Source of the DNA: Vicingaceae bacterium
GTDB taxonomy: Bacteria > Bacteroidota > Bacteroidia > Flavobacteriales_E > Vicingaceae
Reading direction: 5' to 3'
Length of the DNA: 40,008 nt
NCBI GenBank assembly: GCA_029251425.1
Contig: JAQXDJ010000337.1
Coordinates: 1 to 40,008, forward strand
The position numbers were made by a program, and so were the translations under genes. The notes beneath the pieces are model-generated. The model ran no database searches. It was not told where the DNA came from and was given only the letters and a program-made list of their open reading frames with translations. This document shows, piece after piece, positions 14,138 to 27,115 of the stretch; within the stretch, counting starts at the first letter, position 1; each line of letters begins with the position of its first letter.

Positions 14138-14917
14138 TTGCAAAAAGTAAAAGCAAAAAAACACCTCGGACAACACTTTTTAACAGACTTAAGCATTGCT
14201 AAAAACATTGTTGAAGCACTTAGGCAGACCTCTAAATATAAAAAAGTGGTTGAGGTTGGCCCAGGAATGGGAGTGCTTACACAATTTTTAATTGAACATA
14301 ATGAGTACCAAACATTCCCAATAGATGTTGACAGAGAGTCGATAGGTTATTTAGTTGAAAAATACCCAGAATTAAAAGGGAACATTATTTATGGGGATTT
14401 CCTTAAAATGAATTTAACTGATTTGGCAGGAAGTGATGCTTTTGCTGTAATAGGTAACTTTCCATATAACATTTCAACGCAAATTCTTTTTAAGGTGTTG
14501 GATTATAAAGATCAAATACCAGAGGTTGTTGGCATGTTTCAAAAGGAAGTTGCAGAACGTTTTGCAGCAGCACCAGGATCTAAAACGTATGGAATAACAA
14601 GTGTTTTGTTACAAGCATTTTATGATGTAGAATATCTTTTTACAGTTGGTAGGGATGTTTTTGACCCACCCCCAAAAGTTCAATCGGCTGTTATTCGTTT
14701 TACCAGAAACAAGGAGTCAAAACTTAATTGTGATGAAAAGAAGTTTAAGCAGGTTGTAAAAATGGCGTTTAACCAACGAAGAAAAATGATGCGAAAATCT
14801 TTAAAAGCCCTTTTAAACGATTCTATTAAAGATAATAATGTTTTCACAAAACGCCCAGAACAATTGAGTGTTCAAGAGTTTGTAGAGATCACTAACCTTG
14901 TCGACAAAACCCCTTAA
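14138..14917 (+). CDS. rsmA: 16S rRNA (adenine(1518)-N(6)/adenine(1519)-N(6))-dimethyltransferase
   Basis: KAKKHLGQHFLTD N-terminus; VEVGPGMGVLT; IGNFPYNIS. TTG start at 14138 preferred over 14105, which lies inside a -7 box. Confidence 0.9.
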   Translation: MQKVKAKKHLGQHFLTDLSIAKNIVEALRQTSKYKKVVEVGPGMGVLTQFLIEHNEYQTFPIDVDRESIGYLVEKYPELKGNIIYGDFLKMNLTDLAGSDAFAVIGNFPYNISTQILFKVLDYKDQIPEVVGMFQKEVAERFAAAPGSKTYGITSVLLQAFYDVEYLFTVGRDVFDPPPKVQSAVIRFTRNKESKLNCDEKKFKQVVKMAFNQRRKMMRKSLKALLNDSIKDNNVFTKRPEQLSVQEFVEITNLVDKTP

Positions 14918-14980
14918 CATTAACTTAACATAGCCGTAAACGTCTCGTAACATCTTGTTTACTATTACTATATATTTTTG
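14914..14980 (+). promoter_or_regulatory. Pho-box array and -7 box of the porin gene
   Basis: 11-bp-period heptamers TTAACAT(14914) TTAACAT(14925) GTAAACG(14936) GTAACAT(14947) TTTACTA(14958), then TATTTTTG at 14973-14980. Confidence 0.75.
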
Positions 14981-15028
14981 TCAAAAATTAATTATTTAAC
15001 AGAAATAAGGTAACATTAACTACAAGAA

Positions 15029-16252
15029 ATGAAGAGGTTTAATTTATTATTAATTGCGGCATTATTTACTACAGTAGCTTTTGCACAAGACACAACAGAC
15101 AACAAGTTTGGAAAAGGATTTTACAATGTAGTAGCAAGAGATGGTTCTTACAGTATGAAGTTTGCTGCTAGGTTTCAGTCGTTATACATTGGAGAGTGGA
15201 ATGTAAATGACTCAACAGGAGTTGGGGCTGGGTCTTCACAGTTTTTGTTACGTAGAGCAAGATTAAAATTTGGTGGATTTGCTTTTAGCCCAAAAGTTAA
15301 GTATAAGATTGAGCTTGGGTTAACAAATAGAGACATTTCTGGAGCATCATCACACACAAAAGGAGCTCCAAGGTTAATATTAGATGCAGTAGTAAAGTGG
15401 AATTTTTATAAAAACTTATCGTTATGGGGTGGTCAAACAAAGTTGGCAGGAAACAGAGAGCGTGTTGTTTCGTCTGCAAACCTACAATTGGTTGACCGAT
15501 CAAAATTGAACTCAAACTTTAATATTGATAGAGATATGGGTGCTCAATTAAGACATCATTTTACATTAGGTAAAAACTTTGTTGTAAGAGAAATTTTTTC
15601 TGTTTCTCAAGGAGAGGGAAGAAACATTACTGACAAAAACTTAGGAGGATACCAATATACAAGTAGAATAGAATTTTTACCCTTCGGAACATTTGCAAGT
15701 AAGGGAGATTATGTTGGTGGAGATATTAAAAGAGAAGAAAAACCAAAATTAGCTATAGGAGGTACTTATGATTTACATGATAGAGCTGTAAAAAACAAAA
15801 GTAACCAAGGGAGTTATATGGAACGATTTGATGATACAGGAGATTTTGACGGTTATTTCGAAACAGATATTACAACTATTTTTGCTGATATGATGTTTAA
15901 ATACAAAGGATTTTCTTTAATGGGTGAATATGCTGTTAGAACATCAGAGCAAGACAGTGTAACAAACGCTAATGGAACAAAAACAGGACAAGTTGTTGCT
16001 GTTGGATCAGGATTGAATATGCAAGCGGGATATTTATTTAAAAATAATTGGGAAGTAGCAGGAAGATACACTTTAACAGAGTGGGACAAAACAGTTACAG
16101 GAAAAGAAGCACAAACACAATATACTTTAGGTGTTTCAAAATACTTTAAAGGACACAAACTAAAGGTGCAGTCTGATATAACATATAGCGAAACTGTTGG
16201 AAGCTTAGATAACGACTTAATTTATAGGTTACAGTTTGACTTACACTTTTAG
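15029..16252 (+). CDS. OprO/OprP-type outer-membrane porin (phosphate-selective porin family)
   Basis: Signal peptide MKRFNLLLIAALFTTVAFAQ; beta-barrel pattern ending RLQFDLHF; LRRARLKFGGFAFSPKVKYKIELGLTNRD typical of OprO/P-like porins. Confidence 0.82.
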   Translation: MKRFNLLLIAALFTTVAFAQDTTDNKFGKGFYNVVARDGSYSMKFAARFQSLYIGEWNVNDSTGVGAGSSQFLLRRARLKFGGFAFSPKVKYKIELGLTNRDISGASSHTKGAPRLILDAVVKWNFYKNLSLWGGQTKLAGNRERVVSSANLQLVDRSKLNSNFNIDRDMGAQLRHHFTLGKNFVVREIFSVSQGEGRNITDKNLGGYQYTSRIEFLPFGTFASKGDYVGGDIKREEKPKLAIGGTYDLHDRAVKNKSNQGSYMERFDDTGDFDGYFETDITTIFADMMFKYKGFSLMGEYAVRTSEQDSVTNANGTKTGQVVAVGSGLNMQAGYLFKNNWEVAGRYTLTEWDKTVTGKEAQTQYTLGVSKYFKGHKLKVQSDITYSETVGSLDNDLIYRLQFDLHF

Positions 16253-16293
16253 AGGTAACAACAAGGTTTGTTTAAGCCTTACGTGTAAAATAC

Positions 16294-16349
16294 TTAACAT
16301 TAACTTAACATAGTATTTTGCTTAAATTAATAGGACTAATATAGTTTTG
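16294..16349 (+). promoter_or_regulatory. Pho-box array and -7 box of the Na/Pi symporter gene
   Basis: TTAACAT(16294) TTAACAT(16305), weaker 11-bp-phased units at 16316 and 16327, then TAGTTTTG at 16342-16349. Confidence 0.75.
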
Positions 16350-16381
16350 TTGTACAGAATATTTATATAATAATAATTGAT

Positions 16382-18076
16382 ATGGAATTTGGTTTTGTTG
16401 ACGCATTAAAATTGATTGGAGCTCTTGGTTTTTTCATCTATGGGATGAAAATAATGAGTGAAGGAATTCAAAAAGCTGCAGGAAGCGGTTTAAGAAGAAT
16501 TCTAAGTATGATGACTAAGAATCGTTACATGGGAGTGTTAACGGGTTTTTTGGTTACATGTTTAGTACAGTCTTCTTCTGCAAGTACGGTAATGGCGGTA
16601 AGTTTTGTAAACGCAGGCTTACTTTCTTTAGTAGAGTCGGCAGGAATAATGTTGGGTGCAAATATTGGAACAACTATTACTGGTTGGTTAGTTGCAGTTT
16701 TAGGGTTTAAAGTAAAAATTGCAGCAATGGCATTACCTCTTTTAGCTATAGGGGTTCCGATGTTGTTCATGAAAAAGAACAAGATAAAGTACATTGGAGA
16801 GTTTATAGTAGGTTTTGCTATTTTATTTTGGGGTCTTGCTGAATTGAAACATGCAGTGCCAGATGTAAAAAACAACCCTGAGATTTTAAATTTTTTAGGA
16901 GCTTACGCTGATAGTGGTTTCTTAAGTAACATCTTTTTCATATTTGTAGGAACGATATTAACAATAGTGGTACAATCATCAAGTGCTTCTATGGCGTTAA
17001 CACAAACATTATGTTTTAGTGGAATTATCCCTTTTGAGGTTGCTGCAGCAATGATTTTAGGAGAAAATATAGGAACAACAATAACTGCAGAATTAGCTTC
17101 TTTGCCTGCTAATGTACACGCAAAACGTTCAGCAAGAATACACTCTATGTTTAATATAGTTGGAGTTAGTTGGGCGGTTTTATTAATTTCATTTACACCA
17201 GCTTTAGAAGGTGTAAGAGCGGTTGCAATGAACATGTTGGGCTCTGCAGATCCATATACTGCAGAAGGAGCTCCAATGGGATTAGCTATTTTCCACACTG
17301 CGTTTAACTTAGTAAATGTTTTGATTATGATTTGGTTTGTTCCATTATTGGTTAAGCTAGCAATCAAATCTGTTAAATCTAAAGGAGATATGGATGAAGA
17401 GTATCACTTAGAATATATTAGCACAGGAATTATGGCAACTCCAGAAATGTCAATTTTAGAAGCACAAAAAGAAGTTGCTAAATTTGGTGGAGTTGTTCAA
17501 AGAATGAACGGGTTTGTTAAAGAGTTAATTGTTGAAAAAGACAGCAAGAAAATTAGCAAAACATTAGCGAGAGTTAAAAAATACGAAGACATCACAGACA
17601 GAATTGAGCAAGATGTTGCGGATTACTTAGCTAAGATTTCAGAAGGAGAAATGAGCGAAAGCTCTTCTCTTAAAATTAGAGGAATGTTAAGTATCGTTGG
17701 AGATTTAGAGCGAATGGGAGACATTTATTACCAAATGTCTAAAGGTATTGAAAGAAAAGTGGAGAAGAAAGTTTGGTTTACTCCAGAACAGCGCAACAAC
17801 ATTTTAGAGATGTTTGAAATGGTTGAAGCAGCCTTAAATACAATGAATGAGAATTTGTCTGCAAGCTACAGCTCTGTCACTTTAGACAAAGCAAAAGAGC
17901 TTGAAATGGCATTAAACAAGTATCGTAAAGCATTAAGAAAAGAGCATTACGTAAATGTAGAAAAGGGAGAATACAACTTCCAAAGCGCTGCAGTTTATTC
18001 TGATTTGTTTAACTCATTAGAAAAAGTTGGCGATCACGTAATAAACGTTTCTGAAGGAATTACAGGAGAGAACTAA
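16382..18076 (+). CDS. Na/Pi cotransporter family protein with PhoU-like C-terminal domain
   Basis: Two QSSSAS repeats (VQSSSASTVMAVSF, VQSSSASMALTQ), GxNIGTTIT twice, C-terminal helical PhoU-like region. Confidence 0.92.
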   Translation: MEFGFVDALKLIGALGFFIYGMKIMSEGIQKAAGSGLRRILSMMTKNRYMGVLTGFLVTCLVQSSSASTVMAVSFVNAGLLSLVESAGIMLGANIGTTITGWLVAVLGFKVKIAAMALPLLAIGVPMLFMKKNKIKYIGEFIVGFAILFWGLAELKHAVPDVKNNPEILNFLGAYADSGFLSNIFFIFVGTILTIVVQSSSASMALTQTLCFSGIIPFEVAAAMILGENIGTTITAELASLPANVHAKRSARIHSMFNIVGVSWAVLLISFTPALEGVRAVAMNMLGSADPYTAEGAPMGLAIFHTAFNLVNVLIMIWFVPLLVKLAIKSVKSKGDMDEEYHLEYISTGIMATPEMSILEAQKEVAKFGGVVQRMNGFVKELIVEKDSKKISKTLARVKKYEDITDRIEQDVADYLAKISEGEMSESSSLKIRGMLSIVGDLERMGDIYYQMSKGIERKVEKKVWFTPEQRNNILEMFEMVEAALNTMNENLSASYSSVTLDKAKELEMALNKYRKALRKEHYVNVEKGEYNFQSAAVYSDLFNSLEKVGDHVINVSEGITGEN

Positions 18077-18097
18077 AAAACTCCAAAAATCGATAGT

Positions 18098-18123
18098 AAA
18101 GGCGAACCAAATGGTTCGCCTTT
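18098..18123 (+). terminator. Terminator after the Na/Pi symporter
   Basis: AAAGGCGAACC-AAAT-GGTTCGCCTTT perfect inverted repeat. Confidence 0.75.
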
Positions 18124-18129
18124 ATTGTT

Positions 18130-18217
18130 TTAACATTAAGTTAATATTGCTTAACCATCTAATAACATAAGCGTAAAATATGTTTTACCTTATAGCAGGT
18201 TTCTTGTCGTTACTTTG
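18130..18217 (+). promoter_or_regulatory. Pho-box array and -7-like box of the 108-aa gene
   Basis: TTAACAT(18130) TTAATAT(18141) TTAACCA(18151) ATAACAT(18162) GTAAAAT(18173) TTTACCT(18184), then TTACTTTG at 18210 (one mismatch to TAnnTTTG). Confidence 0.65.
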
Positions 18218-18234
18218 CTTTAAATTTAAAACAA

Positions 18235-18561
18235 ATGAAGATGAAAACAATTGCTATAGTTATCGCGTTATTTAGTTTAACAACTGTATTTGCAGGAAAC
18301 AACAATGAAGATAAATTGAAAAAAAGCTTTTCAATAAGTGGAAAGGTGGTTGATAACAATGAAAGCTTAACAGGAGTAAAAATCTTGTTAGATGGAAAAG
18401 AAACAGTGGTATATACTGATTTTGATGGAAACTTTACAATAGACAACGTGTTGGCTGGAGAGCATACAATTTCTTTTAGTTTAATAACTTATAACAACAA
18501 AGAGGTTAGGTTTAACCCTGCTAACGAAAGCAATTTAGAGGTTGAACTAGAGACTAAATAA
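18235..18561 (+). CDS. Secreted stand-alone CarboxypepD_reg-like domain protein
   Basis: Signal peptide then FSISGKVVDNNESLTGVKILLDGKETVVYTDFDGNFTIDNVLAGEHTISFSLITY. Confidence 0.75.
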   Translation: MKMKTIAIVIALFSLTTVFAGNNNEDKLKKSFSISGKVVDNNESLTGVKILLDGKETVVYTDFDGNFTIDNVLAGEHTISFSLITYNNKEVRFNPANESNLEVELETK

Positions 18562-18584
18562 AAAGAGATAAAACCAACTTAATT

Positions 18585-18612
18585 AAACTCCTGTAACCGC
18601 AGGAGTTTTTTT
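18585..18612 (+). terminator. Rho-independent terminator after the 108-aa gene
   Basis: AAACTCCTG-TAACCG-CAGGAGTTTTTTT. Confidence 0.8.
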
Positions 18613-18653
18613 GTGGGCTATACCTACTAATAATTACTAAAACCTATAAAACA

Positions 18654-19115
18654 ATGAAGATTAAAGCGACTTTACTTACCGTAGCATTATTTATCACTAT
18701 AGTTTCAAATGCTCAACAGATCACTAAAAAAGACGGTATTTATGTTAATGAAGATGGTCAAAAATATTCTGGTGTTTACATTTCTTATTATCAAGGTGAG
18801 GCTAAAGAAGCGGTTTATTCTATTAAAGATGGGTTGGAAAATGGATCTGTAGAGTTTTATTACCCAACAACAGAAATAATGGAGCAAGGAAGTTTTAAGG
18901 ACGGATTAAAACATGGTAAATGGACGCGTTGGTCTGTTAAAGGAAACAAGTTAGCTGAGGCAAACTATAGTAAAGGTAAAAAAGACGGTAAATGGCTTAT
19001 TTGGGATGAGTTAGGGGTAAAACGTTATGAAATGTATTACACCAAAGGAACTAAAACAGGAATTTGGATGATGTGGGATGAGAAAGGACAAATCTCTAAC
19101 AAAAAGGAGTATTAA
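18654..19115 (+). CDS. Secreted MORN-like/YwqK-type repeat protein
   Basis: Repeats such as EQGSFKDGLKHGKWTRWSVKGNKLAEANYSKGKKDGKWLIWDELG; N-terminal signal peptide. Confidence 0.75.
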   Translation: MKIKATLLTVALFITIVSNAQQITKKDGIYVNEDGQKYSGVYISYYQGEAKEAVYSIKDGLENGSVEFYYPTTEIMEQGSFKDGLKHGKWTRWSVKGNKLAEANYSKGKKDGKWLIWDELGVKRYEMYYTKGTKTGIWMMWDEKGQISNKKEY

Positions 19116-19138
19116 TCTAAGAGAGGAAATTCAAAAAT

Positions 19139-19180
19139 GTCAGTTCGAGTGAAATTCTGAAAGAATTTTGTATCGAGAAC
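19139..19180. repeat. Intergenic flavobacterial-type repeat (TGTCAGTTCGAG...CGAGAAC)
   Basis: TGTCAGTTCGAGTGAAATTCTGAAAGAATTTTGTATCGAGAAC with imperfect dyad; resembles dispersed intergenic repeats known to me from marine flavobacteria. Confidence 0.4.
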
Positions 19181-19236
19181 AGTATTTTGTAAAACCACAC
19201 GAATTGGCAATGGTTTTTTATATCAAAATCAGAGTT

Positions 19237-19292
19237 TTAATAAACCCTTAACATTAAATTAACGGGTAAACAATGCTGTGACTCTAATTTTA
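19237..19292 (+). promoter_or_regulatory. Pho-box array and -7-like box of the PhoB paralogue
   Basis: TTAATAA(19237) TTAACAT(19248) TTAACGG(19259), then TAATTTTA at 19285 (one mismatch to TAnnTTTG). Confidence 0.68.
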
Positions 19293-19303
19293 ATAATTAG
19301 AAA

Positions 19304-19981
19304 ATGGCACCAATAATAAACATATTCAGCAGTAATTTATCTGATTTAGTCGAGACCAAAAAAGTTTTTGAGAACGATGGTTTTGATGTTTTTTCGCATA
19401 CGTTGGTAAGTGAAGAAACCATTAATGAGGTTTACAAAAAACAACCAGATATTGTTTTGTTGGATTTAGAAATTGGAAATTCAGATGGAATAGAGTTGTG
19501 TTACCAATTAAAGGCAGAAAACGCCCTTAACGCTTTCATCGTCCTCTTTTCTTCACATGAAGAAGATTATATTCAAATAGAAGCTTTTAAAGCAGGAGCT
19601 GATGATTATATTGTAAAACCAATTAACCCAAGAGTTTTGGTTAAAAGAATAAGAGCGCTGCTAAAAAGAAAACCGATAAACCCTAAAAAAGACAAGGCTA
19701 AAATTCTTTCATACAACAGTTTAAAAATTGATAGAGACAGTTATTTAGTTTATAACGATGGAGCTTCATTTTCTTTACCAAGAAAGGAGTTTGAAATGCT
19801 TTACCTATTGATTAATAAACCACAAAAGGTATTTACCCGAGAAGAAATTTTTCAAAAGGTGTGGAAAGAAAAAGAGTGTGAAAATGCCCGAATTATTGAT
19901 GTTCATATTCGAAAAATCAGAGAAAAAATTGGTGACAATATCATTAACACCATTAAAGGTGTTGGGTATCAGTTAGCTTAG
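19304..19981 (+). CDS. OmpR/PhoB-family response regulator with atypical receiver
   Basis: C-terminal winged helix (FTREEIFQKVWKEKECENARIIDVHIRKIREKIG...TIKGVGYQLA). Receiver aligns with the 25383 protein but lacks the DD pair. Confidence 0.88.
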   Translation: MAPIINIFSSNLSDLVETKKVFENDGFDVFSHTLVSEETINEVYKKQPDIVLLDLEIGNSDGIELCYQLKAENALNAFIVLFSSHEEDYIQIEAFKAGADDYIVKPINPRVLVKRIRALLKRKPINPKKDKAKILSYNSLKIDRDSYLVYNDGASFSLPRKEFEMLYLLINKPQKVFTREEIFQKVWKEKECENARIIDVHIRKIREKIGDNIINTIKGVGYQLA

Positions 19982-20193
19982 GCGCCTTATTTAGGGTTAT
20001 TGATTTTATTGTTATTGCCATTGGGGTTGAAGACATCCTTTCTGCGATGTTAAATGTTGTTGCAGGACTGTAACCCTTGTAGTAATCAAAAACAACCTTT
20101 CCCCTACGTTGTTTTTCGTTATTTTTACGCTAATAGATAATGTGAATAAGGTCAATATTGCACTTATTGGACTGTTAACAGTAATTCCAGAAA

Positions 20194-20727
20194 ATGAAAT
20201 TAGAATATAAAATAGAAGAAAATGATTTTTTAGACTTCCAGCTTTTCTCCGCGTCTAAAACAGAACGAATAATGAAGAAAAAAAGGACTGGGTGGATCCT
20301 TCTTACAGCAGGTTCGTTAATTGGGGGAATCTATTTCTATTTTCAACAAAATTTTGCAATGACTATTTATTTTGTTGTAACTACAATAATATGCGGACTT
20401 TTTTACCCAAAGTATTTCAATTGGCGATATAAAAAACACTACAAAAATTATATTAAAGAAAATTACCAAAAACGATTTGGACAGGTTGAGAATATTGAAA
20501 TTACGGAAGAATATATATATTCAAAAGACAAAACTGGAGAAGGAAAAATAAAGCTGAAAGAAATTGATGAGGTGTGTGAAACACAGAATCACTTTCTTTT
20601 AAAAATTTCAACGGGAATGTCTTTAATTATCCCAAAAAGAGAAATAGAAAATATAGACTTATTAAAAACAAAATTTAATGAAATCGGATTAAATATTGTT
20701 AATGAATTAAGTTGGAAGTGGAAATAA
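20194..20727 (+). CDS. YcxB-like membrane protein
   Basis: N-terminal soluble strand, two TM helices, C-terminal YcxB-like domain (ITEEYIYSKDKTGEGKIKLKEIDEVCETQNHFLLKIS). Confidence 0.55.
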   Translation: MKLEYKIEENDFLDFQLFSASKTERIMKKKRTGWILLTAGSLIGGIYFYFQQNFAMTIYFVVTTIICGLFYPKYFNWRYKKHYKNYIKENYQKRFGQVENIEITEEYIYSKDKTGEGKIKLKEIDEVCETQNHFLLKISTGMSLIIPKREIENIDLLKTKFNEIGLNIVNELSWKWK

Positions 20728-20784
20728 AAAACAGCCACAATCATCTATATTTAACAAGACAGTTGGCAGTAATTTAATTTTAAA

Positions 20785-23598
20785 CTACCCTATCAAATAT
20801 TTAATTCCTAAAGTAAACGTAGCGCCTCTTTTGTAAGAATTGAAGATGTATTCTTCATCTTTGTAGTTGTATGTTTTCTTAATAATTGGGTTTAAAATGT
20901 TTTGTGCGTTAAACTTTAAGCTAAACTTCTCTCCCAACTTCTTTGTAATGTTAAAATCTAATTGGTTAACTGGTTGCTGGTAAACATTTGGAGTAGCTCC
21001 AACTATAACAACAGCAACTTTTTCACCAGAAACATTGTAACTTAAGTTAGCGCTTAACCCTAACGAATCGTTATTATATCCAAAAAATAGGTTTACAATA
21101 TAAGGTGATTGTCCAAAAAGACTTCTTGTTTCTTTAGCGTTAGGATCGTTTGCTTTAATTAATTCTAACTCTTGTGCATCAATATTTACTTCAGAATAAA
21201 CATAAGTAAAGTTACCTCCAGCATTGAATGAATGAATATCGTTAGAAATAAAATTCAACTTCTTTTTAATCTCGAATTCAGCACCATAAACCGTTGCTTT
21301 ATCAATATTTCTCCATGTTAATTCAGCATTTTGTGCCTCTGTGTTAAACACTAACTCTATAGGGTTAGTAAACGATTTGTAAAATGCCCCAACAGAAATT
21401 AATTCTCCAAAATTTGGAAACACTTCATACCTCACATCAATGTTATCTACCAAGGTTCTTTCTAAATCTGGATTTCCAACAATGGTCCAGTTAGTAGAAA
21501 AATCATAAGTAGCAAAAGGAGCAATTTCTCTAAACGAAGGTCGAGCCAATGTTCTAGAATAAGCACCTCTTAAATTGCTGTTTTTTGTTAAAGCGTAAGA
21601 AGTGTTTATTGCAGGTAAAATATCTACCTCATCCAATTCTCCAGTTTTTTCTTTTTGGTCAAAACTTCTTACAAAAATGTTGGTGGTTTCTAACCTTGCT
21701 CCAGTTACAATTCTCAACTTTTTTGTTGCCCATATATCTCCCATTAAATAACTCCCAATCACTAATTGATCAGCACCATAACTGTTTCTTCTTTCAGTTG
21801 CATCTTCAATATATAAATAATCAGAAATAGGGTTTCCTGGCCCAGGTAAAGCAAAGTTGGAGTTGTTTAAATAAGCAGCAACACTTCCATCATATTGTAA
21901 TAACCCTTGAGAGCGGTAGTTGTATCGGTATTCTCTTAAAACTCTTTCTTGCTTTAAAAAAGCACCACCAAATTTTAATTTCGATGCTTTTCCATCTTTT
22001 TCTTTAACGTTTAATTCAAAATCTAACTTACCATCTAAAGTTGTTTGATCTAATTCTCTGTAATATCTGGTAGGAACAGGGTAAATAGAAGCTTGTATGT
22101 TGTAGTTAGTATCTCCTGTTGCAGCATCAACTGTATAATCGTTAGAAAAATACCTTAAATCGGGTTGGTTTTGGTTCGATTGAGAAAAAGCGTACATCCA
22201 ATCCACTTTAAGTTTACTTAGTTTTTCAAAATAGTGCTCCCCTTTTGTTTGGTAGCTACTTAATGCGTTTTGTTCATACTCTAAAGCACGTGTTTGTAAA
22301 AACAAACCAGGTTGGTCTTGTGGCACTTCTCCTTCTTGGTATGATGTAGAGGTAATTCCGTTTTGATTTCTTAAATAAACAAATCCCAGTTTGTGGTTTG
22401 GTGAAATTTTATAAGATAAGTTGGCAATTGCCCCCCACAATACATTTTCTGTAGATTTTCTGTCTTTTAACGTTCTTTCAGGATTTAATTCATCTACTTC
22501 ATCTACATTTCCTGTTAAAGAATACCTATTTGTAAAAGCATCTTCATCCCTTAAACTATATTTTTTAGAGTAAGAAAGCCCCACAACAAACCCCAAACTT
22601 TTTCCAAATAGTTTTGTCTGGTTTCCTGCAGAAATTGAATAACCTTGATTTAAAAACGATGTTTTTTCGCTCACATCCATTTCTTTATTAAAAGATGTTC
22701 CCACCTTTTCTAATCTATCATTGTCAACAAATAATGCAGGTATTTTGTTAGTTGAACCAGGCTTATCTCTTGTGCCATTATCGAAACCAAACATGTCGGT
22801 TCCCCCACCCTCATAAGTTAAAAAGTTATCTTTTAAACTAGAAGCTGTATTAAACCCAAGATTACTTGAAAATTGAAAGGTAAATGCTTCCGGAAAATCT
22901 TTTGTTTCAATATCAACTAAACCTCCAGTAAAACTCCCTGGTAAGTTTGGAGTAAAAGACTTGATTACTTTCATATTTTCAATCATGTTGGTAGGAAATA
23001 AATCTAACTGTACAGCATTTTTGTTGGGGTCTAACCCCGGAATTTCAGCTCTATTTACAGTTGTTTTACTATACCTGTCGCTTAATCCTCTTACATAAAC
23101 ATATTTTCCGCCCTCTAAAGTTAATCCAGAAACTCTTTTGGCAGCAGCGGCAGCATTTCCATCACCTCTTTTAGCAATTTCTTTAGCGCCCATTACTTCC
23201 ATAACAGTTGCCGATTTCTTCTTTACTTGTAATAAAAACTGTTCGTTTTTACGATCAGCTTTTGCTTCAATAACAAAAACATCAATATCCATAGAAGAAG
23301 ATCCAAGACTAAAACTATGAGATGTTGTTTCTCCATCTTTAACAGTAACATCTATAGTGTCAGATCTAAAAGAAATATAAGCACAAATCAATTTATATTG
23401 ACCAGCAGCAACATTTGGAATTCTATAGTTTCCATCAATATCAACCATTGACCCAGTTGTTGTGCCCTTAAGTAAAACGGTTGCGCCAATTAACTCCTCC
23501 CCTGTTTCCGAACTTGTTACTTTCCCTTGAATTATACCTTGAGTATAAGTGTTAGCAACACAAAAAAGCAGTAAAGTTATAGCTATGATTTTCTTCAT
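20785..23598 (-). CDS. TonB-dependent receptor with CarboxypepD_reg-like N-terminal domain
   Basis: Signal peptide; GIIQGKVTSSETGEELIGATVLLKGTTTGSMVDIDGNYRI; plug region YVYVRGLSDRYSKTTVN; C-terminal barrel ending FTLGIKYLIG. Confidence 0.92.
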   Translation of the reverse strand: MKKIIAITLLLFCVANTYTQGIIQGKVTSSETGEELIGATVLLKGTTTGSMVDIDGNYRIPNVAAGQYKLICAYISFRSDTIDVTVKDGETTSHSFSLGSSSMDIDVFVIEAKADRKNEQFLLQVKKKSATVMEVMGAKEIAKRGDGNAAAAAKRVSGLTLEGGKYVYVRGLSDRYSKTTVNRAEIPGLDPNKNAVQLDLFPTNMIENMKVIKSFTPNLPGSFTGGLVDIETKDFPEAFTFQFSSNLGFNTASSLKDNFLTYEGGGTDMFGFDNGTRDKPGSTNKIPALFVDNDRLEKVGTSFNKEMDVSEKTSFLNQGYSISAGNQTKLFGKSLGFVVGLSYSKKYSLRDEDAFTNRYSLTGNVDEVDELNPERTLKDRKSTENVLWGAIANLSYKISPNHKLGFVYLRNQNGITSTSYQEGEVPQDQPGLFLQTRALEYEQNALSSYQTKGEHYFEKLSKLKVDWMYAFSQSNQNQPDLRYFSNDYTVDAATGDTNYNIQASIYPVPTRYYRELDQTTLDGKLDFELNVKEKDGKASKLKFGGAFLKQERVLREYRYNYRSQGLLQYDGSVAAYLNNSNFALPGPGNPISDYLYIEDATERRNSYGADQLVIGSYLMGDIWATKKLRIVTGARLETTNIFVRSFDQKEKTGELDEVDILPAINTSYALTKNSNLRGAYSRTLARPSFREIAPFATYDFSTNWTIVGNPDLERTLVDNIDVRYEVFPNFGELISVGAFYKSFTNPIELVFNTEAQNAELTWRNIDKATVYGAEFEIKKKLNFISNDIHSFNAGGNFTYVYSEVNIDAQELELIKANDPNAKETRSLFGQSPYIVNLFFGYNNDSLGLSANLSYNVSGEKVAVVIVGATPNVYQQPVNQLDFNITKKLGEKFSLKFNAQNILNPIIKKTYNYKDEEYIFNSYKRGATFTLGIKYLIG

Positions 23599-23621
23599 TT
23601 TCTTTATTTTTAAATCTGCTG

Positions 23622-23688
23622 CAAAGAAAAAAACAACACATAATTCAGCCGTTAACCGAATGTTAAGACTCTGTTAGGAACTGATTAA
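23622..23688 (-). promoter_or_regulatory. Pho-box array and -7-like box of the TonB receptor gene
   Basis: Minus-strand heptamers TTAATCA(23688) CTAACAG(23677) TTAACAT(23666) TTAACGG(23655), then TTTCTTTG from 23629 to 23622. Confidence 0.7.
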
Positions 23689-23700
23689 CTTATTGCAAAC

Positions 23701-23730
23701 AAAAAGCCCTCCTGATTTATTCAGGAGGGC
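23701..23730 (-). terminator. Rho-independent terminator after the 452-aa lipoprotein gene
   Basis: GCCCTCCTGA-N5-TCAGGAGGGC 10-bp perfect stem, followed by TTTTT on the minus strand. Confidence 0.85.
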
Positions 23731-23784
23731 TACTTTATTCAGGTTATTCTCTTCTTATGGGAAAGAGAAACCCTATCTATAACA

Positions 23785-25143
23785 CTATTGGAAAGTTAAT
23801 GTCCAACCTTGTGCCCAGTTAGTTCCATTTGCATCAAATGCTCCTAAGTATGTTACATTATCATACCATGTATCTGCAGAAGCAGTTCCAGTTCCTAATG
23901 AAGTAGAAGGTATTGGGTTTGTTGTTGTAATTCCCGCAGCAGAAGTACTAATTCCAGATATATTTGTGTGTCCAGATAAATCTGTTCCATTATTATCAAC
24001 AATATTGTTTGATCCGACAGAAGAAAGAACGATATCAGCCAATACCAATTCGCCAGCATCTAATCTTGCTTTAGAATCTTCACCAGTTGCTAAATCTTCA
24101 ATGTCAATTCCTTTACCAAAGTTATGGAATACTGTGTTGTGGTATTCACCACCAGCATTATCTCTAAAAGTAATTGCTCTACTTGCTCCGTTTCCGATGT
24201 AAGTTGCATTGTAAATTACAGGAGTTGCATAAGGCAATCCATCTTCTGGAGATGTTCCCCCATCGTGCTCACCACCTCTGTCAGAGTTTGCGTTTTCTAT
24301 AGCCACCCAAAACTGACCTTTTCCTCTAAACCCTTGGTCGTAATCAAAAGAATCATCTAGTACGTTAGAAACCAAAATGTGTTTTAAGTTTGGAGCTCCT
24401 CCAAAAAACTCAACCCCATCATCAGCATTAGCTACAACCTCAATGTGGTGAATACTTGTTGCTGCACCTACCCCACCTAATGTTAGTCCGTTAATTTCGT
24501 TTCCTGCACCAATGTCAGTACCACCATGACGAATAGAAACATAACATAAAGAACCTGAGTTGTCATTATCGTTAGTACCACCGTAAGAACCTCTTGTTTC
24601 TGATGTAGGTATTCCTTCTATATTTTGTGTAGCAGGAACCGTGTTTAACCTTGCGCTTCCTAAAAGCATTAATCCACCCCATTGTCCAGTAGTAGTCATC
24701 CCTACAGAACCGTCTAAAGGATCAGCTTCAAAAGTAAATATAATTGGGTTTGAAGCAGTACCACATGCATTAATTTGAGCTCCTCTAGTTACAATTAAAG
24801 CAGATGCGCTTGCTCCAGTTCCAGGTTTTCCTTTTATAACTGTTCCAGGCTCAATTGTTAAAACATCACCAGAGTTTACAAAAACAAAACCATCTAATAA
24901 ATACACATTGTCTTTTGTCCAAGTTGTTGTTCCTGTGTTGTCAGATACTGTTATAGGATCTTTTTCTTCAGGATTATTTGGCTCATCTTCTTCATAAATA
25001 CATGATCCATCGTCTTTTTCTGCTTCAGCACTAAAGTTTTCTGCAGTAATATCTGTACACCCTTCTTTTTTAGAACATGAAGTTAATAGGCTCCCTAACC
25101 CTAGGATAATTACCGTAACTAATAATAAGTTTTTTGTTTTCAT
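23785..25143 (-). CDS. Surface lipoprotein, right-handed beta-helix-like
   Basis: Lipobox LGSLLTSCSKKEG; CTDITAENFSAEAEKDDGSCIYEE motif; repetitive beta-helix-like region (VFVNSGDVLTIEPGTVIKGKPG...). Confidence 0.75.
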   Translation of the reverse strand: MKTKNLLLVTVIILGLGSLLTSCSKKEGCTDITAENFSAEAEKDDGSCIYEEDEPNNPEEKDPITVSDNTGTTTWTKDNVYLLDGFVFVNSGDVLTIEPGTVIKGKPGTGASASALIVTRGAQINACGTASNPIIFTFEADPLDGSVGMTTTGQWGGLMLLGSARLNTVPATQNIEGIPTSETRGSYGGTNDNDNSGSLCYVSIRHGGTDIGAGNEINGLTLGGVGAATSIHHIEVVANADDGVEFFGGAPNLKHILVSNVLDDSFDYDQGFRGKGQFWVAIENANSDRGGEHDGGTSPEDGLPYATPVIYNATYIGNGASRAITFRDNAGGEYHNTVFHNFGKGIDIEDLATGEDSKARLDAGELVLADIVLSSVGSNNIVDNNGTDLSGHTNISGISTSAAGITTTNPIPSTSLGTGTASADTWYDNVTYLGAFDANGTNWAQGWTLTFQ

Positions 25144-25178
25144 TTTTTTAATCTTTAAGTTTTATAATTTTTATGCTG

Positions 25179-25256
25179 CAAAGAAACGGCTGCACTATTA
25201 CTAAAGCATGAAAGCAATCTTATACTTATTTTATGTTCATGTTAAGGGAACATTAT
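25179..25256 (-). promoter_or_regulatory. Pho-box and -7-like box of the lipoprotein gene
   Basis: Minus-strand ATAATGT(25256) TTAACAT(25245) ATAAAAT(25234), then TTTCTTTG from 25186 to 25179. Confidence 0.6.
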
Positions 25257-25321
25257 TTGATTTGAAAATTTAATTGAAGAAGAAATTAAAAATCCAGCAA
25301 TAACAAGGATAAAACAATAAA

Positions 25322-25366
25322 TTAATATTAAATTAACATCCAGAATGAAACACTGAGCTACCTTTG
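25322..25366 (+). promoter_or_regulatory. Pho-box and -7 box of the PhoB gene
   Basis: TTAATAT(25322) TTAACAT(25333), then TACCTTTG at 25359-25366 (full TAnnTTTG match). Confidence 0.72.
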
Positions 25367-25382: not shown

Positions 25383-26060
25383 ATGAGTAACGAAAAAATA
25401 TTATTAGTTGATGATGAGCCAGACATCATAGAGTTTTTGGGTTATAATTTAACAAAAGAAGGATATGATGTAACGACATCTACAAGTGGGAAAGAAGCGG
25501 TTGAACTAGCTAAAAAAATTAAACCTGATTTAATATTGTTGGATGTTATGATGCCAGAGATGGATGGTATTGAAACTTGTCAAGAAATTAGAAATGTGGC
25601 AGATATTAAAAATACGCTAATAGCTTTTTTAAGCGCAAGAGGTGAAGACTACTCACAGGTTGCAGGCTTAGATGCTGGAGCTGATGATTATATAACAAAA
25701 CCTATTAAACCAAGACTTTTAGTAAGTAGAGTTAAGGCTATTTTAAGAAGGAAATCAGGTGGTGAAGAGGTGGGTGTTGATGAGCAAGAAGGAGACATTA
25801 AAATTGATAGAGAAAAATACTTGGTATATAAAGAAGGAGAAGAGCTTTCATTTCCTAAAAAAGAATTTGAATTATTGGCGTTATTATTATCTAAACCAGG
25901 GAAAGTTTTTACTAGAGAAGTAATACTAGAGTCTGTTTGGGGAGGAGAGGTTGTTGTTGGAGATCGTACAATAGATGTACACATCAGAAAACTTCGTGAA
26001 AAATTAGGAGACCACTACATTAAAACGATTAAAGGAGTAGGTTATAAATTTGAATCTTAA
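25383..26060 (+). CDS. phoB: PhoB-like OmpR-family response regulator
   Basis: KILLVDDEPDIIEFL, LILLDVMMPEMDGIE, ADDYITKPIKPRLL, winged-helix C-terminus; followed by a PhoR-like kinase. Confidence 0.85.
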   Translation: MSNEKILLVDDEPDIIEFLGYNLTKEGYDVTTSTSGKEAVELAKKIKPDLILLDVMMPEMDGIETCQEIRNVADIKNTLIAFLSARGEDYSQVAGLDAGADDYITKPIKPRLLVSRVKAILRRKSGGEEVGVDEQEGDIKIDREKYLVYKEGEELSFPKKEFELLALLLSKPGKVFTREVILESVWGGEVVVGDRTIDVHIRKLREKLGDHYIKTIKGVGYKFES

Positions 26061-26086: not shown

Positions 26087-27115
26087 ATGAAAGACCTAAC
26101 CCCCAACGGAATAGCCCTCAGAATTTCTTTTCTAATGGCGGCTGTTCTTACCTTACTTGTTTTTGTTTTAGACACCTATAACGGAAATAGCAATTTGTTA
26201 ATTCTGGCTGTTTTTCCTGTTTCATTTATTGCATCTTATATTGGTTTTAGAATAGCTGTTGAACGATTTATTTATAAAAAGATAAAGGTTATTTACAGAA
26301 CAATTCACAACCTGAAATTAAAAAAAGTAGATGATTCGAAAGAGTTTAGTTTAGCTCAAATTCAAACAGAAGTTGAAGACTGGGATAAATTAAATAAAGA
26401 AGAAATAGGGAGGTTAAAGGGATTAGAGAGTTACAGAAGAGAATATGTAGGAAACCTTTCACATGAATTGAAGACCCCAATTTTTAATATTCAAGGGTAT
26501 TTATTGACATTATTAGAGGGAGGACTGCATGATCCAAATATTAATGTTAGCTATCTAGAAAAGGCGAGTAATAGTGTTGATAGAATGATTTCATTAATTG
26601 AAAACTTAGACGATATTTCTAAGTTGGAGTCTGGAATGATTGAGATGGACATAAAGAAGGTTGATTTGGTTAAATTGGTAAAAGAAGTGGTTGGCGCTTT
26701 GGAGATGCAAGCTCAAAACAATGATGTTAAATTGAAGTTTGTTGATGAACCCTCTAAGCCCGTTTGGGTAAGTATTGACGAGAGCGGAATTAATCAGGTG
26801 TTGGTTAACCTAATAGTAAACTCCATTAAATATGGGAAAGAGGAAAACGGGGAGACTCTGATTAAGTTGTTTGATATGGATGAGAATGTGTTGGTTGAGG
26901 TGGCAGACAATGGAACAGGTATTGCAGAGCACCATCTATCACGTTTGTTCGAGCGGTTTTATAGAATTGATAAAAGTAGAGCAAGAACGAGTGGTGGAAC
27001 AGGTTTGGGTCTTTCTATTGTTAAACATATTATTGAAGCACATAACCAAACCATTAATGTAAGAAGCACTCCAGAAGTTGGTTCTACGTTTTCATTTACA
27101 TTAAAAAAGGCTTAA
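26087..27115 (+). CDS. phoR: PhoR-like membrane sensor histidine kinase
   Basis: Two N-terminal TM helices; NLSHELKTPIFNIQGYLLTLLEGG H-box; VNLIVNSIKYG N-box; GTGLGLSIVKHIIEAH G-box. Confidence 0.82.
   Translation: MKDLTPNGIALRISFLMAAVLTLLVFVLDTYNGNSNLLILAVFPVSFIASYIGFRIAVERFIYKKIKVIYRTIHNLKLKKVDDSKEFSLAQIQTEVEDWDKLNKEEIGRLKGLESYRREYVGNLSHELKTPIFNIQGYLLTLLEGGLHDPNINVSYLEKASNSVDRMISLIENLDDISKLESGMIEMDIKKVDLVKLVKEVVGALEMQAQNNDVKLKFVDEPSKPVWVSIDESGINQVLVNLIVNSIKYGKEENGETLIKLFDMDENVLVEVADNGTGIAEHHLSRLFERFYRIDKSRARTSGGTGLGLSIVKHIIEAHNQTINVRSTPEVGSTFSFTLKKA

Follow-up and report, generated by a model that had tools for sequence, protein, structure and literature searches.

The PhoP boxes of Bacillus subtilis consist of TTAACA-like hexamer repeats. 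Here we describe arrays of TTAACAT heptamers, repeated every 11 bp upstream of seven genes in a contig of a Vicingaceae bacterium (phylum Bacteroidota; GenBank assembly GCA_029251425.1, contig JAQXDJ010000337.1; the whole 40,008-nt stretch is referred to as the window), which are very probably the Pho boxes of this lineage. The B. subtilis boxes share the period of these arrays and differ in spacer flexibility and site placement. Similar repeat features have been noted for them (PMC4415409). The Escherichia coli Pho box is likewise built from tandem 11-bp direct repeats (seven conserved and four less conserved bases) that are bound head-to-tail and lie immediately before the -10 region (PMC4415409, PMC1906773), but its core is CTGTCAT instead of TTAACAT and it adjoins a sigma-70 -10 element, whereas the arrays described here have up to six units and adjoin a Bacteroidota -7 box (TAnnTTTG). 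The SphR Pho box of cyanobacteria, CTTAACCT (8 bp plus a 3-bp linker), has the same period of 11, a nearly equal core (cTTAACat in the present arrays) and at least three units (PMC1906773), although its unit ends in CT rather than AT and it belongs to another phylum and another promoter class. The architecture of the arrays is that of known Pho boxes.

The structure of Mycobacterium tuberculosis PhoP accounts both for the strict 4-bp spacer that separates the 7-bp motifs and for the tighter binding when three or four of them are present (PMC4832192), which fits tandem PhoB arrays in the window. In the same phylum, PhoB (BF1576) of the Bacteroides fragilis PhoRB system (PhoR, BF1575) binds the pstC promoter directly and controls pst, with no box sequence found in that paper (PMC3547664). 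In Flavobacterium johnsoniae, the TonB-dependent transporter (TBDT) and lipoprotein genes beside phoBR (Fjoh_0545/0546) are induced by about 8 and 10 log2 units on depletion of inorganic phosphate (Pi), and Fjoh_0544 is also induced (PMC8115612). The window has a gene neighbourhood of the same type (PMC8115612, Table 1); unlike here, the portion of that text searched reports no cis element, and the strict motif is weak in two related Flavobacterium genomes. Bacteroidota are major recyclers of phosphorus in marine, soil and gut habitats. Measurements of their low-phosphate regulon exist, but a published Bacteroidota Pho-box sequence was not found in the open-access literature searched, a scope that leaves out most subscription papers and leaves the absence unproven.

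Phased arrays upstream of seven genes

The preliminary description of this DNA had placed the units of all seven arrays 26 + 11n bp before the -7 box, counted from heptamer start to the first base of the box. All positions were re-read and all units were present, as follows (distances in brackets; ranks refer to the position weight matrix, PWM, described below).

14914-14953, + strand: porin array, TTAACAT at 14914 and 14925 and GTAACAT at 14947 (59/48/26), with a weak GTAAACG at 14936; PWM rank 2; kept at 59 in genus relatives
14973-14980, + strand: porin -7 box TATTTTTG, strict TAnnTTTG match
16294-16311, + strand: Na/Pi transporter array TTAACATTAACTTAACAT, TTAACAT/TTAACAT (48/37), plus TTAATAG at 16327 (15); PWM rank 1
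16342-16349, + strand: Na/Pi transporter -7 box TAGTTTTG, strict TAnnTTTG match
18130-18190, + strand: array of the 108-amino-acid (aa) protein gene, six units at 18130 and 18141 (80/69) and at 18151, 18162, 18173 and 18184 (59/48/37/26: TTAACCA/ATAACAT/GTAAAAT/TTTACCT); PWM ranks 3, 7 and 12
18210-18217, + strand: -7-like box TTACTTTG of the 108-aa protein gene, no strict TAnnTTTG match
19237-19265, + strand: array of the PhoB paralogue PhoB2, TTAATAA/TTAACAT/TTAACGG at 19237/19248/19259 (48/37/26)
19285-19292, + strand: PhoB2 -7 box TAATTTTA, no strict TAnnTTTG match
23649-23688, - strand: TonB receptor array, TTAATCA/CTAACAG/TTAACAT/TTAACGG at 23688/23677/23666/23655 (59/48/37/26); PWM ranks 4 and 10
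23622-23629, - strand: TonB receptor -7-like box TTTCTTTG, lacking TA; an equal weak box stands at 37/26 in the F. panici TBDT promoter
25228-25245, - strand: lipoprotein array, TTAACAT at 25245 and ATAAAAT at 25234 (59/48), with a weak ATAAGAT at 25223 (37); PWM ranks 9 and 11
25179-25186, - strand: lipoprotein -7-like box TTTCTTTG, lacking TA, no strict TAnnTTTG match
25322-25339, + strand: phoB array, TTAATAT at 25322 and TTAACAT at 25333 (37/26); PWM rank 5
25359-25366, + strand: phoB -7 box TACCTTTG, strict TAnnTTTG match

The two outermost units above the 108-aa protein gene, TTAACAT (18130) and TTAATAT (18141), are off phase by 1 nt, as first described. Several single units match TTAACAT at only 4-5 of 7 letters. 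Compared with the Bacteroidota primary-sigma consensus TAnnTTTG (PMC7366714), three of the seven -7 boxes are strict matches (porin, Na/Pi and PhoB) and six contain TTTG; the boxes that are not strict matches deviate at TA or the final G.

A generic repeat search of the window missed the arrays because their units are too short and too degenerate, and an unweighted count within the window reached modest significance (3 pairs at 11 bp versus 0.2 in shuffles, with the first porin unit dropped, as it starts 4 nt inside ksgA). Because the window holds too few intergenic bases and pairs for strong statistics, out-of-sample tests were chosen. When both strands were scanned with a two-unit PWM built from 87 training sites, all from other genomes and none from the window's own, the 12 best matches all fell upstream of the seven named genes and of no others, at distances of 56-115 bp. 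The two top sites scored 24.6 and 23.7 bits versus a maximum of 17.7 in 20 Markov shuffles; weaker sites (10.6-17 bits) were individually non-significant, yet scored above every non-Pho site. The highest information content, about 2.1 bits, was at the C of TAAC, partly by construction, some training sites having been picked by TAAC.

The window is an entire contig of a 2.54-Mb metagenome-assembled genome (MAG) that is 80% complete. Its phosphate cluster spans 15.0-27.1 kb and encodes a Porin_O_P protein, a Na/Pi transporter with PhoU, the 108-aa secreted protein, a MORN-like protein, the PhoB paralogue, a YcxB-like protein, a TonB receptor, a lipoprotein, PhoB and a kinase. The seven genes below the arrays and the kinase gene are as follows.

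15029-16252, + strand: Porin_O_P outer-membrane porin, 407 aa (Pfam PF07396, E 6e-8)
16382-18076, + strand: Na+/Pi cotransporter with PhoU domain, 564 aa (PF02690, E 9e-59; PF01895)
18235-18561, + strand: secreted carboxypeptidase-regulatory-like protein (cpd108), 108 aa (PF13715)
19304-19981, + strand: PhoB2, response regulator paralogous to PhoB, retaining the phospho-Asp and the recognition helix but not the acidic pair
20785-23598, - strand: TonB-dependent receptor, 937 aa (PF00593/PF07715), homologue of phoB-flanking TBDTs across Flavobacteriales
23785-25143, - strand: lipoprotein, 452 aa, without a Pfam match; homologous to phoB-linked lipoproteins of Flavobacteriales and beside phoB in relatives
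25383-26060, + strand: PhoB response regulator, receiver plus winged helix (PF00072/PF00486); nearest named relative in a Flavobacteriales MAG (81% identity)
26087-27115, + strand: PhoR-like histidine kinase (PF00512/PF02518), directly downstream of phoB

Scanning the window's own MAG with a phased degenerate pattern yielded 15 matches versus 8 in controls, among which only the known tonB and phoB sites were recognisable and no clear further regulon members emerged from this 80% complete assembly; the DUF47 and PstS-type families likewise had no match in it.

Period, phase and gene association in relatives

Across 60 relatives, exact TTAACAT pairs numbered 7, 15, 21, 46, 12, 3 and 4 at spacings of 8 to 14 bp, peaking at 11 bp, and the reversed control of the 11-bp pattern gave 8. 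In 80 PhoB loci across the phylum, intergenic TAACAT pairs occurred 17, 12, 7 and 7 times at 11, 22, 33 and 44 bp; all other tested distances gave 0-1. The unit consensus is cTTAACATtrr with a TAAC core.

The phase to the -7 box was also kept. Below the exact pairs collected blind, 19 of 20 strict TAnnTTTG boxes lay at phase 3, 4 or 5 modulo 11, centred on 4 (26 modulo 11), and TTTG was found at phase 4 in 27 of 64 cases (about 6 expected; p 2e-12); for the PhoB loci the count was 31 of 78 (about 7 expected). Units matching at least 5 of 7 letters occupied the positions 15, 26, 37, 48, 59 and 70 bp before the -7 box in 53, 73, 63, 34, 41 and 38% of 59 in-phase promoters, which had been selected for that phase, versus 5% off phase. 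The claim of one fixed phase therefore stands as to 26 + 11n but was too strict, the true value being phase 4 ± 1 modulo 11; similarly, the innermost unit often stands at 15 bp instead of 26, a position occupied in 53% of the 59.

In sister species, the orthologous porin, Na/Pi, cpd108, PhoB2, tonB, lipoprotein and phoB promoters carry arrays at 26 + 11n to the TTTG or TTTA of the -7 box, and this rule is kept although the sequence around the arrays diverges. Phase is identical in all six orthologous phoB2 promoters (6/6), and in some Na/Pi and cpd108 promoters of genus relatives the array is shifted by ±1 nt. The arrays thus comprise at least two direct repeats of about seven conserved bases with a period of 11, at a fixed position (phase 4 ± 1) relative to a core promoter element.

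To relate arrays to gene function, promoters anchored on protein families were compared in 60 genomes of the class, a strong pair being defined as at least 12 of 14 matches to the 11-bp TTAACAT pair. Strong pairs were present at 13/25 DUF47, 8/29 PBP_like_2 (PstS-type) and 5/29 Na/Pi promoters (the window contributing one of the five), versus 0/28 promoters of sodium-solute symporters (SSF), the control family; spacings other than 11 bp gave 0-2. This bears out the enrichment at phosphate over non-phosphate promoters that had been proposed as a check. In PhoB loci, a TAAC pair preceded 31 of 133 homologues of the window's tonB, lipoprotein, porin, Na/Pi and phoB genes versus 30 of 667 other genes (Fisher p 1e-10), and these other genes include PstS-like, Pit-like and MurG-like glycosyltransferase genes (identified by eye). 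The genes found directly below the blind exact pairs include phoB and those for Na/Pi transporters, Porin_O_P, DUF47 (the Pit partner), a PstS-type binding protein and a MIP-like protein. Among the corresponding genes from the phylum's other classes are ones for Na/Pi transporters, a BPD_transp_1 permease (interpreted as PstC), Porin_O_P and TonB receptors. Arrays are accordingly found at promoters of phosphate uptake and regulatory genes and not at those of the unrelated SSF control, weakly so in two Flavobacterium genomes. The earlier Pho-box reading is upheld by this concentration at phosphate genes in genomes and families that had not been seen, together with the specificity of the 11-bp period and the phasing to the TTTG of the -7 box.

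A Pho-box model and its alternatives

The predicted PhoB (25383; PF00072 plus PF00486) keeps the acidic pair and the equivalents of D53 and K105, and its recognition helix retains R193, T194, H198, R200 and R203 of E. coli PhoB; R201 and R219 of the latter are replaced by Lys in all 74 homologues compared. We propose PhoB, whose recognition helix is compatible with this role, as the binder of all seven arrays, with the 19304 paralogue, PhoB2, as a possible second. PhoB2 has a recognition helix almost identical to that of PhoB and keeps the phospho-Asp; its acidic receiver pair is lost in the window copy and in five orthologues (six species in all: L129:16911-17585, L132:15588-16265, L147:5528-6205, L153:9114-9788 and L155:1523-2197 in addition to the window). 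PhoB2 may be a phosphorylation-independent second reader of Pho boxes.

We conclude, with high confidence, that this Bacteroidota lineage has its Pho boxes in these arrays, on which phosphorylated PhoB would assemble head-to-tail and recruit the primary sigma factor to -7 boxes that are weak. Under phosphate scarcity, the kinase (26087) would phosphorylate PhoB, which would then occupy the 11-bp direct repeats with one monomer per helical turn on a single face of the DNA. With the array 26 + 11n (±1) bp upstream of the -7 box, and units often at 26 and 15, bound PhoB could present a constant face to the primary sigma factor and RNA polymerase at -33, taking the place of a poorly defined -33 element; this proposed contact follows from the position of the array. 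Weak -7 boxes, which in the TonB receptor and lipoprotein promoters lack even the TA of TAnnTTTG, would in this way be switched on to drive the porin, Na/Pi transporter, TonB receptor, lipoprotein, 108-aa protein, PhoB and PhoB paralogue genes. The number of units may tune each promoter. By analogy with Fjoh_0545/0546/0544, the downstream genes may be induced by starvation, and the syntenic F. panici TBDT carries a phased array.

Some results weigh against this model. Among relatives, a TAAC pair was found at only 4 of 71 phoB genes, indicating that PhoB autoregulation is not general. Genome-wide, the strict motif was hardly enriched in F. panici (20 versus 13 in controls) and F. potami (9 versus 7), so that either the motif is looser there or strict sites are few; matches in both genomes include the phoB-linked TBDT, DUF47 and an orphan TBDT, and the phoB-linked TBDT promoters read ATAACAA-N4-GTAACAT with TTTCTTTG at 37/26. 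TTTG at phase 4 was seen in only 26 of 68 blind exact-pair promoters, which implies that a sizeable share of the exact pairs arose by chance or represent other elements, such as the PorP/SprF pair described below. Finally, OmpR/PhoB-family regulators all bind direct repeats (PMC4832192), and the repeat alone does not name PhoB.

In keeping with this last point, another regulator of the family, for example the 19304 paralogue or an RprY-like protein, might use the arrays and control the phosphate genes instead of or together with PhoB. The position of PhoB2 within the cluster, its own array, its near-identical recognition helix and the promoter phase conserved in six species speak for such a role. 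However, PhoB2 was found in genus relatives only, whereas the arrays are spread over the class and into further classes of the phylum, and their presence in loci of species with no detected PhoB2 argues against PhoB2 as the sole binder. The arrays are moreover linked to phoB loci and to pst/Pit genes, and it is PhoB that binds the pstC promoter in B. fragilis (PMC3547664). We regard this explanation as unlikely.

The arrays might instead be genuine PhoB sites that act mainly in repression or storage, or independently of phase to the -7 box. Many exact pairs do lack an in-phase TTTG, and the F. johnsoniae porin gene adjoining phoR is not induced by Pi depletion, but most phoB-linked genes of that species are (PMC8115612), and phase 4 ± 1 was observed in 19 of the 20 strict boxes below blind pairs, making this possibility very slight. 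Although the window is 67% AT and 11 bp is near the helical repeat, the idea that AT-rich promoters or helically phased, bending A-tracts give rise to the repeats incidentally, with no specific regulator, has a negligible probability and was rejected on the controls: the most informative base is a C (with the caveat on its construction given above) and not part of an A-tract, the signal is absent from reversed patterns, other spacings and a non-phosphate transporter family, and shuffles stay below the two best window sites.

If the arrays are Pho boxes, the box and its fixed placement relative to the -7 element would make the Pho regulon predictable from sequence across thousands of uncultured genomes. 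They would also offer a concrete model for activator-dependent transcription in a phylum whose primary sigma factor is unusual and has a poorly defined -33 element. It is possible, if on balance doubtful, that the TTAAC-type phase-locked box is the ancestral Bacteroidota phosphate operator, read in this genus by PhoB and by a PhoB2 that is itself under Pho-box control and may serve as a phosphorylation-independent feedback or memory element.

Further promoters with 11-bp boxes

The box also singles out uncharacterised TonB receptors and lipoproteins, along with a MIP-like protein, as candidate parts of phosphate uptake. Two or three perfect TTAACAT units stand above genes for a 250-aa MIP (aquaporin)-like protein (L128:8215-9081 and L131:6247-7093, the L131 copy adjoining Porin_O_P), a candidate new channel of the phosphate regulon. 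Orphan SusC-like TonB receptors with 11-bp boxes were seen in L294 and L313 (F. panici and F. potami) and in L346, L349 and L354, the last three with the TTTG of the -7 box in phase at 37, and are candidate phosphate-related TonB transporters. Within the class, a secreted protein combining a beta-propeller with a phosphoesterase domain (PF04185; L369:1754-4000) has a perfect box at 26/15 and resembles in make-up the Pi-induced F. johnsoniae lipoprotein Fjoh_3414.

A genus-conserved 11-bp pair above a PorP/SprF (type IX secretion) gene, TTAACATCTTATTAACAT, was set aside as unrelated, with neither a phosphate gene nor an in-phase TTTG. A PorP/SprF pair, TTAACATNTTATTAACAW, likewise with no in-phase TTTG, is conserved in the genus and followed by a long conserved leader (L130:7757, L150:8953, L156:8454, L157:8493 and L169:2497), and represents a different conserved element. 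At the extreme end of the window's contig (39952-39980), a weak 11-bp repeat, GTTACGCATGGGTAACATGGGCATTACCT, precedes a gene that would lie beyond the assembly. Two other exact TTAACAT pairs were noted, one, with no strict -7 box, 179 bp upstream of the gene for a Kup potassium transporter (L139:8693) and one above a DUF4956 gene (L164:712-1374). DUF4956 proteins are often encoded beside polyphosphate-polymerase (VTC) genes, and a link to polyphosphate is therefore possible for the latter.

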